From positions 8,624 through 30,625 of the IMG/VR virus record IMGVR_UViG_3300030090_002133: a stretch of DNA of 22,002 nt. One strand, 5' to 3'. This DNA is from a virus. Below are positions 10,684 to 17,668 of the stretch, piece after piece; positions within the stretch are counted from its first letter, which is position 1, and every line of letters begins with the position of its first letter. Position numbers and translations under genes: made by a program. Under the pieces are notes generated by a model. The model made no database searches. It had not been told where the DNA came from and saw only the letters and a program-made list of their open reading frames with translations.

Positions 10684-11112
10684 CTACGATAAATCTATGG
10701 TGATCCTTAGATCGCCTTCTACTTGAACCTGCTGTCTGTCTGGTGGCTTATAGCCACTTCGATCAAGGATCGAATCACTTGCCTGTAGTTGCACATACTC
10801 AGAACGTGCAGATGTTGACAAACGCTGTAGGGTTAAAGCAGCACCTACAGCTGAACGCCGTAGGTTCTGCCCTACAGCTTCAGTCATGTAACGTTCTACA
10901 TGTGGCAAATGCATTATGCGTTGTACTGTAGTTCTGTGCAAACTCAACGACTTAGCAGTCGCTGTGTTTGAGTCACCTGTAGCAAGAATATGATCGACAA
11001 TCTTTTTTTGCCGAGCAGTCAACGGCTTCTGATCGATCGGGACTGGAAGAGGTTTCTTAATCAGTTTGGGTCGATCGTTATTCTTGGATGGTGACGAGGA
11101 TTGCTCTTGCAT
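10684..11112 (-). CDS. terS: Terminase small subunit
   Basis: This 142-residue protein has a basic, Pro-rich N-terminus (about 1-30), then LTARQKKIVDHILATGDSNT and AKSLSLHRTTVQRIM, a helix-turn-helix typical of small terminases that recognise the packaging site. A helical oligomerisation region (about 75-118) ends in SILDRSGYKPPDRQ, and a short acidic tail (DLRITIDLS) may contact TerL. The size fits TerS. It is the most upstream late gene and faces the large divergent region. The ribosome binding site is weak (AGG about 13 nt away). Confidence 0.8.
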   Translation of the reverse strand: MQEQSSSPSKNNDRPKLIKKPLPVPIDQKPLTARQKKIVDHILATGDSNTATAKSLSLHRTTVQRIMHLPHVERYMTEAVGQNLRRSAVGAALTLQRLSTSARSEYVQLQASDSILDRSGYKPPDRQQVQVEGDLRITIDLS

Positions 11113-11347: not shown

Positions 11348-11476
11348 TTGAGTAAACTGATAACCCAATTTTCTACGCAATGATCTAAAGACCAATGCTC
11401 GAAAATGTGTTGTGTTTATATATATTAATCAATGATGTCTGTTACACCTATATACTGACAGGGTACTACCGCAGTA

Positions 11477-11514
11477 CAAGTAACAACAGAACACAACACA
11501 GTTACTTGAGTAAC
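11477..11514. repeat. GTTACTTGAGTAAC palindrome with an adjacent inverted copy
   Basis: CAAGTAAC at 11477-11484 is the inverse of GTTACTTG at 11501-11508, which is itself part of the palindrome GTTACT-TG-AGTAAC (11501-11514). A further palindromic copy with inverted centre lies at 11862-11875, at the far end of the giant palindrome. It looks like a regulatory protein site. Confidence 0.45.
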
Positions 11515-11876
11515 AGAGATTTCTCGCCACTTGGATTGCACATATTCGCTTAAGAAGATGATTCGGATTATTTCCAGTAAAAACTTCCTTCACAGCCAGA
11601 ATATAGACCTTTCACAGAAATTTGAATGTTACGTTGATGGATCTAGGAATGTTGCCGAGAACGCCCTGTTATGCAAGGCCAAGCCACGTTGTGGTGGGCT
11701 TGCGCCCAGCCTTGCATATCAGTTCGTTATCGGCCTCATAAGATCCATTAACAACGTAATATTAAAATTTGAAAGGAACTATATTATGTCTATGAAGAAA
11801 ATTTTTGAAATAATCGAATCATCTAGCGAATTTGTACAAGTCCAAGTTCTGAGAAATATCTGTTACTCAAGTAACT
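11500..11876. repeat. Giant imperfect palindrome (inverted repeat of about 170-180 bp arms)
   Basis: The left arm (11500-11679) and the reverse complement of the right arm (11709-11876) align along their whole length, by eye about 70 percent identical with a few short gaps. Outer ends match at 32 of 36 positions (11500-11535 against 11841-11876). Inner ends match at 22 of 26 (11654-11679 against 11709-11734). The 29-nt loop (11680-11708) has its own small stems. The right arm contains the ribosome binding site, start codon and first 30 codons of the 142-residue gene. The left arm, read in the equivalent frame, has stops and is non-coding. It is either a decayed inverted duplication or a functional long RNA or DNA hairpin. 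Confidence 0.85.
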
Positions 11877-12214
11877 CAGACATGGACTACCAAAGAAAAC
11901 AGGGAGCACAATACCTCGCTGAAGCTCGGCATATTATGACCGAAGAATACAACGGCTCTGAGATACAAGGAGGCAAGCTTGATCGCCTCCGAGAGTTTCA
12001 TGAGCGTTGCATGGATCAGTTCGCTGAATGTGAAAAGATTCACAATGAAGCTCGCAAGCAGTACAAGAAAGCTACGGGCAATGATTGGGTCTTAACTCCT
12101 AAGAAGCAACCTACTAGCGACAAAGCTAAGACTGCTAGCGCAGGTTACTGGCAGAAGCTTATCGGTAAAACTGAAGCCGAGTATGAAGATTCCAAGAAGC
12201 GTAAAGCTTCTTAG
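11786..12214 (+). CDS. Hypothetical early protein with start codon inside the giant palindrome
   Basis: The ATG at 11786 with AAAGGA 8-12 nt upstream is preferred. The frame is open back to 11531 but that extension only reads through the palindrome and loop. The 142-residue protein starts MSMKKIFEIIESSSEFVQVQ and is helical and charged. A central part has AQYLAEARHIMTEE and REFHERCMDQFAECEKIHNE, and it ends in a Lys/Ser-rich tail. I do not recognise the family. It is the first rightward gene and is followed by a strong terminator (12222-12252), so it forms its own transcription unit. Long-stem folding of its mRNA would hide the start site, suggesting translational control. Confidence 0.7.
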   Translation: MSMKKIFEIIESSSEFVQVQVLRNICYSSNSDMDYQRKQGAQYLAEARHIMTEEYNGSEIQGGKLDRLREFHERCMDQFAECEKIHNEARKQYKKATGNDWVLTPKKQPTSDKAKTASAGYWQKLIGKTEAEYEDSKKRKAS

Positions 12215-12221
12215 GAATCTT

Positions 12222-12252
12222 GGGAGTAGCTTAACAGCTACTCCCTTTTTTT
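12222..12252 (+). terminator. Strong intrinsic terminator
   Basis: A perfect 10-bp stem, GGGAGTAGCT/AGCTACTCCC, with a 4-nt loop (12232-12235) is followed directly by seven T residues (12246-12252). It lies 8 nt after the stop of the 142-residue gene. Confidence 0.93.
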
Positions 12253-12282
12253 ATCAACATCCGTTTCAACCAAGGAAATATT

Positions 12283-12450
12283 ATGTCAGATGATAAGGAA
12301 CTAGCTCGGCTTCACGTTCGAATGGAAAAACTTTCCAAAGAACTTAAAGAAACAAAAGCAAAATATGGTATAGCGAAAGCAAAAGTAAACGAATTGCTTT
12401 TCATGCTTCAAATGACAAATGCTTACACACCAGAAGACAGTATTCATTAG
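12283..12450 (+). CDS. Short coiled-coil protein
   Basis: This 55-residue protein starts at an ATG with AAGGAAAT about 5 nt upstream. The sequence MSDDKELARLHVRMEKLSKE continues as a charged heptad-like helix (about 5-38) and ends with a short polar tail. Such small coiled coils often act as oligomerising early phage proteins, but the family is not recognised. It lies just after a strong terminator, so a promoter must be close upstream or some read-through must occur. The frame, ribosome binding site and amino-acid pattern all support a real gene. Confidence 0.7.
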   Translation: MSDDKELARLHVRMEKLSKELKETKAKYGIAKAKVNELLFMLQMTNAYTPEDSIH

Positions 12451-12463
12451 GAGATAATTGCAA

Positions 12464-12529
12464 ATGTATAAAGAATTAATTAGCATAATGCTTATATCAT
12501 TTATGATATATGCATCATTATGGATTTAA
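12464..12529 (+). CDS. Possible 21-residue membrane peptide
   Basis: An ATG at 12464 preceded by GGAG (11 nt away) opens a 21-codon frame, MYKELISIMLISFMIYASLW plus Ile, a polar start followed by one hydrophobic helix long enough to span a membrane. It follows the coiled-coil gene by 13 nt. The regular small membrane-peptide pattern supports it, but a frame this short can arise by chance in AT-rich DNA. Confidence 0.42.
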   Translation: MYKELISIMLISFMIYASLWI

Positions 12530-12877
12530 AAGTTCCGTGTCCCGTAGCAAGGACTAGTTTGCAGACCAACTGCGATGAAATGAAGTAGAGTAGCATCTAC
12601 AAACAAAGGACTGACACTGTTACGTGTCGGCTACTGAAGCCGTTAAGGATATGGGGAGGCAGACCTATGAAGGTGAATGGTTTTCTTTAATCGGTAAAAA
12701 GGTTAAAGATACATTCATGTAAACCCATTGAGGATGGTGCTAGGAGGGAAAAAAATAAGCCTCGTTATTGGTACTCATTAAATATGAGATGTAAAACAAT
12801 GCATCTGGTTTGTAACCTATTATCTTACCAGTATTTAAACGCTATTTTTTTTAATAATTTCCTTATAGCGTTTACAG
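12530..12877 (+). ncRNA. Gene-poor, hairpin-rich stretch; candidate structured RNA
   Basis: About 350 nt without a clear gene, ending at an excellent terminator (12878-12914). A series of local stems is visible: GTCC/GGAC (12539-12554), GCAG/CTGC (12561-12573), GTAGA/TCTAC (12585-12600), GACAC/GTGTC (12613-12628), GGCT/AGCC (12629-12641), CCAT/ATGG (12725-12737), CTCAT/ATGAG (12774-12788) and AAACGCTAT/ATAGCGTTT (12837-12873). No known RNA class is recognised. A competing reading is a short frame from GTG 12624 or ATG 12651 to 12722, encoding up to 32 residues with a protein-like sequence (MGRQTYEGEWFSLIGKK), so part of the region may be coding. Confidence 0.4.
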
Positions 12878-14669: not shown

Positions 14670-16071
14670 TAAAGGTGGTCGAGGATTCGAAGAACTTGTT
14701 GCTAATATCAAAGCTAATGGAATACTCCAGCCTCCAGGTGTACGCAAAAATGGTGATGGCCGACATGAAATAGTGTGGGGCAATCGTCGTGTAGAAGCTG
14801 CTCGAGAATTAAAACTAAAATCTATACCCGTAAGCTTAGTTGAAATGGATGATATAAATGCACATGAATGTGCCTTGTCCGAGAACGCAGTTCGTGAAGA
14901 CATGGATGCAATGGATGAATGTGTAGCTTTTCAAAAGATGTTAAATAATGGAAGAAGTGTTACTGATATAGTAGAACGCTTTGGTGTTTCAGCATCAGTT
15001 GTAAATCAAAGACTAAAACTAGGTCAGTTAGATCAATGCATAATTGATAGCTATCATGCTGGGATAATAAACATTGAGCAATGCATGGCATTTACATTAC
15101 ACACAAAAGAAAAGCAAAAAGAAATAATTAAAGGCGATCACTTGCAAAGCTGGTATATACGCAACCTAGCTTTAGATACTAAAATTAATATGGAAAAAGC
15201 TTTATTTAAAAATTCTGATTACAAAGGTTCTATTGTTATGGATTTGTTTTCAGAAGATGTAGAATATTTTGCTGAAGACTATGATGAGTTTATGACATTG
15301 CAACGAATTGAATGTGACAAACTAAGAAATAAATACCTTAAAGACGGCTGGAGTTTTGTAGAAATACAAGAACAATCATTTGATGATCGTTTTAATCAAA
15401 TTGAACAAATATTAAATAAACCAGTAACACAATTATATTATAGTTTTACTGATGAAGATCGTGAACTCAATTCAAAAATAAATAAATCTGAATGTGGTGT
15501 TGTTATAATTTTATATAGTGATGGTTCTGTTAATAGCAAAGGTGCTTTCAAATTCACTGGCAATGAAATAGTGGATACTGAAACTGGTGAGATTATTGAA
15601 GAAAAAGATCAAGAAGATCCAACTGATTTTAATAAACTAACTGGTCCACAGTCTCAAGCAATAGCTGAATCTGCTTATTTAATGTTTGTTGAAAATGCTT
15701 CATTAATAGAATCAATTGCATATCTTTTGAAATGGGAACTTGATAAAGACTATTCAAAAATAATTAAAAACAATGATGCTGATTTACTTACAAAACATAT
15801 TAAAGCTATATGTGCTCGTAGATTTCCAAAGATTGGTATCGATACAGCATACAGTACATTGATGAAGAAAAATAAATGGGACTTGTCAAAACATTTTACT
15901 CCAGATGAAAAGTTTATTAAAAGCTACAGCCAGCCAAAGCTAAAAGCATTAGCTAAATATCTTGGTGTAAAGTTAGAAGATAACAGTAAGAAATCTACTA
16001 AAGTAGCTATGTTGGTTAAAGCTTTTAAAGAAGGTAAAGGTAAAGCTAAGTCATGGCTACCAAAGATTTAG
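14605..16071 (+). CDS. ParB-like DNA-binding protein
   Basis: This 488-residue protein has a clear ParB/Spo0J N-terminal domain: SLNPRKN (15-21), GILQPPGVR (39-47), WGNRRVEAARELK (58-70, the GERR-type box) and ENAVREDM (93-100). A helix-turn-helix follows (SVTDIVERFGVSASVVNQRL, about 118-137). The long C-terminal half is acidic then basic at the end (KAFKEGKGKAKSW). No ParA is visible, so it may be a transcription regulator, a CTP-dependent clamp used in replication, or a ParB-type nuclease rather than part of a partition pair. The AAGGAAA before the ATG is convincing. It ends convergent with, and 26 nt into, the minus-strand gene at 16046. Confidence 0.85.
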   Translation: MKIIELPLNQIKSTSLNPRKNNKGGRGFEELVANIKANGILQPPGVRKNGDGRHEIVWGNRRVEAARELKLKSIPVSLVEMDDINAHECALSENAVREDMDAMDECVAFQKMLNNGRSVTDIVERFGVSASVVNQRLKLGQLDQCIIDSYHAGIINIEQCMAFTLHTKEKQKEIIKGDHLQSWYIRNLALDTKINMEKALFKNSDYKGSIVMDLFSEDVEYFAEDYDEFMTLQRIECDKLRNKYLKDGWSFVEIQEQSFDDRFNQIEQILNKPVTQLYYSFTDEDRELNSKINKSECGVVIILYSDGSVNSKGAFKFTGNEIVDTETGEIIEEKDQEDPTDFNKLTGPQSQAIAESAYLMFVENASLIESIAYLLKWELDKDYSKIIKNNDADLLTKHIKAICARRFPKIGIDTAYSTLMKKNKWDLSKHFTPDEKFIKSYSQPKLKALAKYLGVKLEDNSKKSTKVAMLVKAFKEGKGKAKSWLPKI

Positions 16072-16297
16072 CTTTCATAGCATTAAGTTTTATCTCGGCT
16101 GTGCATCGTTTCCAATAATCTTTGTTAATATAACTACGTAGTTCAGATGGTTTTGGAAACCATTTAAGATTCATTCTACAAGTACGCATCATATCTATGA
16201 TTGCATCTAATGGAAGATCTTCAATAGCTTCAAGATAAAATTCTACTATTCGGTTCCAGTTATTGGGCATGCCATATAATTCCAGGGTCTGCTCCAT
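16046..16297 (-). CDS. Replication loader-like small protein
   Basis: The ATG at 16297 has AAGGGG 8 nt upstream and gives 83 residues: MEQTLELYGMPNNWNRIVEF, then YLEAIEDLPLDAII and WFPKPSELRSYI. The DLP plus WFPxxSELR pattern occurs in small phage proteins encoded next to replication initiators, some regarded as helicase-loader-like. The frame is open upstream to 16741 and the stretch just before the ATG also looks protein-like (QIDTLLYEVKILNEP), so a non-ATG start near 16390 remains possible. It follows the initiator gene in the same direction. Function is inferred from motif and neighbour. Confidence 0.6.
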   Translation of the reverse strand: MEQTLELYGMPNNWNRIVEFYLEAIEDLPLDAIIDMMRTCRMNLKWFPKPSELRSYINKDYWKRCTAEIKLNAMKAKSLVAMT

Positions 16298-16391
16298 AAC
16301 TGTAACCCCTTGTTCAATCTGACATGGTTCATTTAATATTTTTACTTCGTATAGTAATGTGTCTATTTGTGACGACGTTATATAAATTGAA

Positions 16392-17093
16392 TCAGTTGGA
16401 CGCCAATCGTTTATCCAATGCGGAACGGAAACCAGCTTGCCTTTCTTGGCGAGCTTGTTCGCCTCGAGCAAAACCATATCCCTTTCTTTCTGGCCTGTTA
16501 TCATTAAGCTTTTGATCTTGAAGCTTTGCGACATTTTTCCAGTCGATTGCATTGTTGATCCAATTACGGAATGATTTATTCCAATCTGATCGCTCTGCTC
16601 TATGACCAGACTTTTTCCAATAGTATTCACAAAATTTTCTGAATTGTTCTGTTGTAACTTGTTGTCCGACAATGGCGTTAGACCATGTAATTGTTTCTTC
16701 GTTAAGCTGGAAATTGACTGGAAGTCTTTCTGTTTTTTCATTTGCTACATCCTTGTTTTCAATAGGTTTTACTTGGTTATTTGATGGAGCTATATTCTCC
16801 ATCCATTTATGAACTGGAAACCTGTATATATTCGGCTGTCCTATTTGTATTGATTGTGTATTAATTAATTCATGATGTTCAAGTTCAGATAATGCACGTT
16901 GAAATGTTCTTAATTGTACACCAATACGTTGGCACATTTCATTTTGTTTTAATGTTACTTCTCCTTTATCCGTACTAGCAGAACACATCATAGCATAAAT
17001 TAACTTTGCATTAGCTGAAACATTAGGTTGTTCAAGCAACCAGTTTGGTATAAACGCACCTGACCAATGCTTGTTTGGAATTATCATTTTCAT
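16392..17093 (-). CDS. Winged-helix replication initiator-like protein
   Basis: This 233-residue protein starts with a winged helix domain: NVSANAKLIYAMMCSAS (24-40) and EMCQRIGVQLRTFQRALSEL (52-71), then a wing. A Pro/Asn linker leads to a C-terminal domain with FRKFCEYYWKKSG and RSDWNKSFRNWINNA (about 151-182), a motif widely shared by phage replication proteins that bind DNA and recruit helicase. AGAGGTG precedes the ATG by 4 nt and the start overlaps the upstream stop as ATGA. The origin it recognises may lie in one of the palindromic regions (17717-17771 or 11243-11347); this is inference. Confidence 0.8.
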   Translation of the reverse strand: MKMIIPNKHWSGAFIPNWLLEQPNVSANAKLIYAMMCSASTDKGEVTLKQNEMCQRIGVQLRTFQRALSELEHHELINTQSIQIGQPNIYRFPVHKWMENIAPSNNQVKPIENKDVANEKTERLPVNFQLNEETITWSNAIVGQQVTTEQFRKFCEYYWKKSGHRAERSDWNKSFRNWINNAIDWKNVAKLQDQKLNDNRPERKGYGFARGEQARQERQAGFRSALDKRLASN

Positions 17094-17401
17094 AATACAC
17101 CTCTTGATAGTTTTTGTACTACAAGAAATGGTTTATTATCTGCTTTAATTATTAAAGCATCGATGTTTGGATATTCATCTATCCATTTATATAATTGTTT
17201 AAAACCATTTGATCGGCATTTAACTTCAATGCGACAATCAATGTCCTGATCTTTATCTAATATTTCAAGATCATATGAATCTTGTGAACCAAGTTGCCCT
17301 ATTTTTTTATCAACACGACGAGCATCATAGCCCAAAGATATTAATTCTTTTACTAGATTTCTTTCAGTACGTGAACCTTTATCACGACTAAGTTTTGACA
17401 T
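17090..17401 (-). CDS. Holliday junction resolvase-like (Hjc-type) nuclease
   Basis: This 103-residue protein has the Hjc-like PD-(D/E)XK layout: SRDKGSRTERNLVKEL with Glu13, GYDARRVDKK, then SYDLEI (Asp44) and RIEVKCRS (Glu59, Lys61). These are the expected metal-binding and catalytic residues, all present. It would resolve branched DNA made during recombination-dependent replication. A strong AAAGGAG lies 6 nt before the ATG. It sits between the XRE regulator and the replication initiator, with overlap to the latter, so the three genes form one leftward operon. Confidence 0.85.
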   Translation of the reverse strand: MSKLSRDKGSRTERNLVKELISLGYDARRVDKKIGQLGSQDSYDLEILDKDQDIDCRIEVKCRSNGFKQLYKWIDEYPNIDALIIKADNKPFLVVQKLSRGVL

Positions 17402-17404
17402 GCG

Positions 17405-17668
17405 CTACTCCTTTGTTTTTTTTAGGGTGACAGTATATCCTAATGCTTCAGCCCATACAAATAAAGCAAAGGCTGATGGTGTTCGATCTCCACATTCCCA
17501 ACGACTAACTAAACTATCCGTATAACCTATTTCATCATTTAGTTTGGTCTGTGTTAATTGTTGTTTTTTTCTCTCAGCTATTAACTGGTCAATTAATGGT
17601 TTCAATTTTGTTTCTGTATATAATTTTCGTTTTTTCCAGGAACGGCAAAGAGTATTCCTTTTTGTCAT
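17405..17668 (-). CDS. XRE/Cro-CI-type transcription regulator
   Basis: This 87-residue protein has a basic N-terminal arm (TKRNTLCRSWKKRKLY), a helix leading into RKKQQLTQTKLNDEIG and YTDSLVSRWECGDRTPS (34-65), a standard XRE helix-turn-helix, and a short helical end. It lacks a C-terminal peptidase domain, so it is Cro-like or a short repressor. It is the first gene of the leftward replication operon and faces the divergent region with the 17717-17771 hairpin, the natural place for its operators. No good ribosome binding site is visible upstream of the ATG. Confidence 0.85.
   Translation of the reverse strand: MTKRNTLCRSWKKRKLYTETKLKPLIDQLIAERKKQQLTQTKLNDEIGYTDSLVSRWECGDRTPSAFALFVWAEALGYTVTLKKTKE

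Follow-up and report, generated by a model that had tools for sequence, protein, structure and literature searches.

The window, by which we mean the whole stretch of 22,002 nucleotides analysed here, is part of a 32,278-bp IMG/VR phage record whose large terminase subunit (TerL) is 64% identical to that of Pelagibacter phage EXVC031P. Its leftward late block begins with the gene for the terminase small subunit, TerS (10684-11112, minus strand; PHROG 2538, E = 2e-15), and divergent from TerS lies g142 (11786-12214, plus strand), the founding member of a 113-ORF family with this orientation, whose predicted all-helical product has 142 amino acids. A terminator scan placed an intrinsic terminator 3' of g142 (12222-12252, plus strand), which makes the gene a monocistronic unit, and in relatives too g142 tends to be monocistronic with a terminator of its own. 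With respect to function, g142 had no significant match in Pfam or PHROG, and its AlphaFold model (pLDDT 93.5) matched nothing in the PDB at E <= 0.001; its remaining matches, to unnamed phage proteins, were borderline. Foldseek gave a weak, non-significant resemblance to Psu of P4, a Rho inhibitor (3rx6, E 0.69).

Between the two genes, and reaching into g142, lies a giant imperfect palindrome. Its inverted arms (11500-11679 and 11709-11876) match along their full length, with 150 of 171 aligned bases identical and 35 gap columns in an end-to-end alignment, and comparison of the palindrome with itself by blastn in the window gives E = 1e-57. Identity is highest, as the original prediction had it, at the outer ends, which are complementary at 32 of 36 positions, and at the inner ends, where 31-nt arms separated by 29 nt agree at 81%. 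The ribosome binding site of g142 (AAAGGAAC, 11772-11779), its ATG (11786) and its first 30 codons all lie inside the right arm, where they had been correctly placed. Folded rightward over 11460-11900, a comparison with shuffled sequences that had been suggested at the outset, the RNA reaches -176.9 kcal/mol against -89.7 +/- 5.7 for shuffles (z = -15.2), and a leftward RNA of 11500-11876 reaches -186.5 against -80.8 +/- 5.2 (z = -20.5); on both strands the palindrome region is, by a wide margin, the strongest fold of the whole window. A chance palindrome is excluded by these z-scores and by control stretches of the same loci (see below); the structure is of RNA type, and its arms represent an inverted duplication that takes in the start of g142.

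On a leftward, TerS-sense RNA, alignment and fold make the right arm (11709-11876, minus strand) the 5' arm of a hairpin, antisense to the beginning of g142 (ribosome binding site, start codon, first 30 codons), and the left arm (11500-11679, minus strand) its 3' arm, an inverted copy of the g142 start that is non-coding in relatives. Transcribed leftward, the left arm had been expected to yield an antisense RNA; it would in fact give a sense-like RNA of the gene start, and an antisense would require its rightward transcription. The outer end of the left arm carries a 14-bp near-perfect palindrome (GTTACTTGAGTAAC / GTTACTYRAGTAAC, 11501-11514) that is mirrored at 11862-11875; 0.06 are expected by chance with one mismatch allowed, and it is possibly a regulator site. 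On the gene side (11862-11875), this palindrome encodes the CYSSN motif conserved in g142.

Distribution of the hairpin and origin of its arms

Relatives were gathered by searches with TerS and TerL, and a scan for TerS loci gave at least 565 matches. In the closest of them (locus L003), whose g142 protein is 86% identical, the same hairpin is present with matching changes in both arms. Comparing 1.10 Mb of loci with themselves uncovered giant palindromes, about 300-1300 nt in length; every one that scored above 53 bits lies just upstream of TerS or, in locus L102, where TerS was not recognised and the palindrome was placed relative to TerL, just upstream of TerL. The TerS-upstream stretch was folded first for 77 regions and then for another 65, and the longest stem found had about 445 pairs; in the second set (65 regions), the longest stem had a median of 65 pairs upstream of TerS, compared with 34 where control stretches from those loci were folded. 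Of the 102 TerS loci with g142, 77 have a stem of 60 pairs or more, as opposed to 4 of the 24 without it, and the giant size of the stem is dispensable, since about a quarter of the g142-bearing loci have short stems only. EXVC031P is the only close match among cultured phages related by TerS; this phage, which infects HTCC1062, carries one such hairpin (OQ414635, about 11,934-12,649; z = -19). In the more distant TerL relatives, Burkholderia phage BcepC6B and Vibrio phage VA-RY-3, the palindromes near TerS are limited to small ones of about 95 nt (positions 1-98 of L211 and 2009-2102 of L212). The phages with this hairpin form a broad marine family, EXVC031P-like and including a Pelagibacter phage. 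An assembly artefact, which had been considered for the window, or a chimeric foldback is excluded by diverged arms that recur across many metagenome assemblies and in the isolate EXVC031P.

The left arm had been described as stop-ridden, which depends on the direction of reading. In the window, the leftward sense-like frame is open for 30 codons, as part of an ORF (11429-11593, minus strand; peptide MKEVF...ARNLCYSSN), whereas L003 has 2 stops in the same frame, and full-length copies of g142 in other relatives have 5-14 in-frame stops together with frame-breaking gaps. The first 31 of the 54 residues of this ORF are like the g142 start, and, given that stops break its counterpart in L003, we take it as a remnant of the duplication. 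We judge the copy non-coding because of the 5-14 stops, the frame-breaking gaps and the distribution of arm mismatches, which in the full-length copies of relatives fall about equally over codon positions; the stops, which are many, and the broken frame rule out two divergent protein-coding paralogues. Read on the TerS-sense strand, the window's 5' arm is antisense to the start of g142, whereas the antisense covers the entire gene in L063, L010, L159, L162, L158, L139, L201, L068 and L020. As in hpRNA genes, the arms come from an inverted duplication and are complementary to a gene.

Pairing on the TerS-sense strand

A G.U mismatch on one strand is an A.C mismatch on the other, and the two can thus be counted against each other. 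In 38 hairpins, a few of which are near relatives and thus not all independent, with arms mostly defined without strand preference and only mismatches flanked by matches counted, the TerS-sense strand has 318 G.U versus 30 A.C isolated mismatches; G.U is in excess in 34 hairpins and A.C in 1. Individual G.U:A.C counts range from 25:0 (L158), 24:0 (L159), 22:0 (L055) and 39:2 (L020) to loci where the bias, taken singly, is weak or absent (L063, 9:4; L068, 9:3; L075, 13:4; the window, 4:1; L027, 2:2). Because of this excess of 318 over 30, we conclude that the pairing kept by selection is that of the leftward, TerS-sense RNA. Mutation skew alone is ruled out as its source by the composition of 4-fold sites (51-66% G+T on the TerS-sense strand), which predicts a neutral G.U:A.C ratio of about 1.4:1, between 1:1 and 2:1. 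The strand bias also bears on the picture originally preferred, in which a rightward mRNA folds and hides the g142 start, either as translation control or as an RNase III site. Although the rightward fold is itself strong (z = -15) and the start codon lies within the stem, pairing is unpreserved on that strand, which has A.C where the TerS-sense strand has G.U, and its stems are shorter in most loci; we regard this model as highly improbable.

Further evidence comes from 20 close pairs of relatives, one of which nearly duplicates another, compared only at base pairs that the folds of the two strands share. Double changes keep pairing in 66 cases and break it in 17, with 16.5 expected in all, and among single changes 68 produce G.U and 16 produce A.C. 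Between the window and L003, 3 double changes keep pairing and 0 break it (0.24 expected). Through compensatory and G.U substitutions, the 3' arm follows changes in g142. A decaying inverted duplication, which had been listed among the possible explanations and which relatives lacking the left arm and any covariation would have favoured, predicts neither covariation nor strand bias; the left arm is present in the relatives searched and covaries, strand bias between the arms is present as well, and the duplication is neither isolated nor decaying.

The double changes, taken alone, could stem from gene conversion between the arms, which could yield double changes that keep pairing but not the preference for G.U, so that conversion is insufficient. 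The broader proposal, that the palindromes are functionless remnants of repeated inverted duplications of g142 whose arms stay similar by template switching or gene conversion, draws on arms that span the full g142 in several relatives, on the wide variation of stem length and on these possible conversion products. However, neither conversion nor mutation skew explains a ratio of 318:30 where about 1.4:1 is neutral, the side hairpins of the tip covary though they lie outside the duplication, and the element keeps a single location throughout a very broad family. We consider this reading already disfavoured and very unlikely.

Alternatively, the same strand might fold as single-stranded DNA, serving as a single-strand origin or as a packaging or recombination signal, with the TerS strand exposed in replication. 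A displaced DNA strand would likewise predict strand-specific folding, the Y-shaped tip is reminiscent of hairpin origins, and the site adjoins TerS, a frequent place of pac signals. DNA, however, tolerates G.T, G.G and G.A about equally and should raise all three, whereas G.U alone stands out on the TerS-sense strand: the ratio of G.U to A.C is 10.6, compared with 1.4 for G.A:T.C, 3.4 for G.G:C.C and 4.0 for U.U:A.A. A spectrum with G.U so far above the other types would be expected for RNA rather than DNA; moreover, loops at the tip, G(CUUG)C and GNRA among them, resemble those of RNA, and the replication initiator is 5 kb distant. Folding as DNA is in our view unlikely.

The tip itself (11680-11708, minus strand) had been described as a 29-nt loop. 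It contains two small hairpins instead and forms a three-way junction, with side hairpins P2 (11696-11707, minus strand; GGGC-GCAA-GCCC, with a GNRA loop) and P3 (11684-11694, minus strand; CCAC-AAC-GTGG). L003 differs only in the loops (GGGC-GAA-GCCC and CCAC-AAA-GTGG), and the topology recurs in L055 and L057, where the sequences differ yet still pair. A large subgroup shares this topology according to a covariance model: its second branch consists of a conserved AGTTCGCAA...TTGCGAACT stem and a loop that measures 8-110 nt, and its first branch exists in 35 distinct versions with 26 different stems. The covariation score of 11 tips is 0.173 versus 0.071 for shuffles, with 0 of 500 shuffles reaching it, and full-length plus-strand matches to the covariance model in 1.26 Mb lie upstream of TerS only. 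This model (R1, 11 tips) does not match the tip of the window, which has the topology in common but not the sequence. The P3 loop of L019, L024, L137, L158 and L162 is long, often starts with a CCCCACAAGGC-like sequence and is T-poor, as if held single-stranded. Taken together, the G.U bias, the paired changes and the tip agree, and these three tests show that evolution kept the folding on the TerS-sense strand only.

Proposed function and relation to known systems

We propose that this is a widespread phage RNA element, a giant Y-tipped hairpin between TerS and g142, and consider it probable that its duplication origin, the selection for TerS-strand pairing and the transcription of that strand hold jointly. 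As the sequence of the arms shows, an inverted duplication of g142, of its start or of the entire gene, created the palindrome; selection then held the pairing of the TerS strand as the copy lost its coding capacity, which the covariation and the G.U:A.C bias show; and the TerS strand would be transcribed, either as the untranslated leader of a late transcript or as a separate RNA.

With respect to transcription, the terminator scan found no typical terminator 3' of the hairpin, and on the TerS strand the promoter scan showed no enrichment of signals ahead of the 5' arm. In relatives, sigma-70-like promoter matches are enriched between the hairpin and TerS, from which a TerS mRNA without the hairpin would arise; this speaks against a leader, and the hairpin RNA could be a separate one. 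EXVC031P has an 11/12 promoter match within the 3' arm. In the window, a promoter-like match (TTGACA-16-TATCCT; 11146-11119, minus strand) ends 6 bases before the TerS start codon. Within the otherwise rightward early region lies a leftward block (16046-17668, minus strand) with a replication-initiator-like and a small HTH-like protein, and read-through leftward from this block would traverse g142 and the hairpin. The RNA is most likely made as transcription turns from the early side to the late genes, be it as leader or separately.

As to what the hairpin does, its most likely role, which we put forward tentatively, is that of a self-locking leader. The stem would lock the untranslated antisense leader into itself during synthesis, such that it would neither pair with g142 mRNA nor leave free RNA within reach of Rho and nucleases, while a protein would bind the Y tip. 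The TerS-strand RNA might instead silence g142 at the early-to-late switch, with RNase III releasing the antisense 5' arm from the hairpin. This arm is perfectly antisense to the start of g142, the gene itself tends to be monocistronic with its own terminator, and hairpins mostly co-occur with g142; yet silencing would suffer if the 3' arm took the antisense back, and an antisense by itself requires no covarying copy, which leaves silencing rather doubtful. RNase III may process the hairpin. It is a serious possibility, if somewhat short of an even one, that the hairpin is a new class of phage RNA and a device of its own, an essentially double-stranded rod of 300-1300 nt with a Y tip that is made at the early-to-late switch and evolves by copying the neighbouring gene into its other arm again and again. 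Such a rod may be part of the packaging motor, an antitermination leader, or a decoy or trigger for double-stranded-RNA-sensing defences.

Double-stranded RNA rods that run to hundreds of base pairs are not expected to occur naturally in bacteria, whose RNase III cuts them, or in phages, which have to avoid RNA-sensing defences. That selection has kept such a rod in a broad marine phage family raises the questions of how it survives, what binds its tip and whether defences sense it. It also constitutes a clear case of an RNA partner strand that tracks a fast-evolving coding gene, and the existence of the isolate EXVC031P brings an experimental test within reach.

The original prediction knew of no phage element with such a layout, and we likewise found no description of one in the literature searched, the coverage of which is incomplete. 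In Rfam 15, no match scored above the gathering cut-off in the window, L055, L068, L020, L063 and six more loci, the window giving sub-threshold matches only. The large structured phage RNAs GOLLD and ROOL of Rfam are multi-domain and conserved in sequence, unlike the hairpin with its lack of an Rfam match. The single-strand origins (sso) of rolling-circle plasmids and hairpin origins are also large, imperfect, strand-specific palindromes; the sso, however, is DNA of 150-300 nt tied to plasmids with a rolling-circle Rep, whereas the mismatch spectrum found here is RNA-like.

In its location, the hairpin resembles cabRNA of staphylococcal phages, a structured RNA of ~400 nt from the terS-terL region that is sense to these genes, partly double-stranded and, in vitro, a substrate of RNase III (Banh et al., 2023; PMC10686824). 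Like cabRNA, the hairpin would be a structured phage RNA at the terminase genes and sense to them. In contrast to the hairpin, which lies upstream of terS as one giant rod, cabRNA, an activator of a CBASS cyclase, is inside the terS/terL coding sequence and consists of several hairpins with no inverted gene copy, and no sequence or taxonomic link connects the two. By analogy with cabRNA, the hairpin RNA may interplay with double-stranded-RNA-sensing defence.

The three-way junction is shared with phi29-type pRNA, and a structural RNA of the packaging machine would fit a site that adjoins the terminase genes in the same sense. pRNA, which sits on the prohead as part of the packaging motor, is nevertheless small and of fixed size, only about 120-174 nt, without a giant stem and without antisense relation to a gene, whereas stems here vary from 60 to 445 pairs and no conserved interlocking loops were seen, making a pRNA-like part the least probable of the readings weighed here. 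The three-way junction of pRNA and its link to packaging are described in PMC5340915.

In its origin, the hairpin is closest to genes of eukaryotes. The hairpin has the inverted-duplication origin in common with such genes, which are Dicer/Argonaute-dependent and give diced small RNAs that silence the target, whereas here the setting is a phage and one arm is itself the antisense of a coding gene. Fly hpRNA genes and young plant miRNA genes are long hairpins that arose by inverted gene duplication, with arms complementary to the gene concerned. Suppression of target genes by hpRNAs is described in PMC10317233. Hence, the element resembles no single known system: it has the junction of pRNA, the place of cabRNA and the origin of hpRNA genes.
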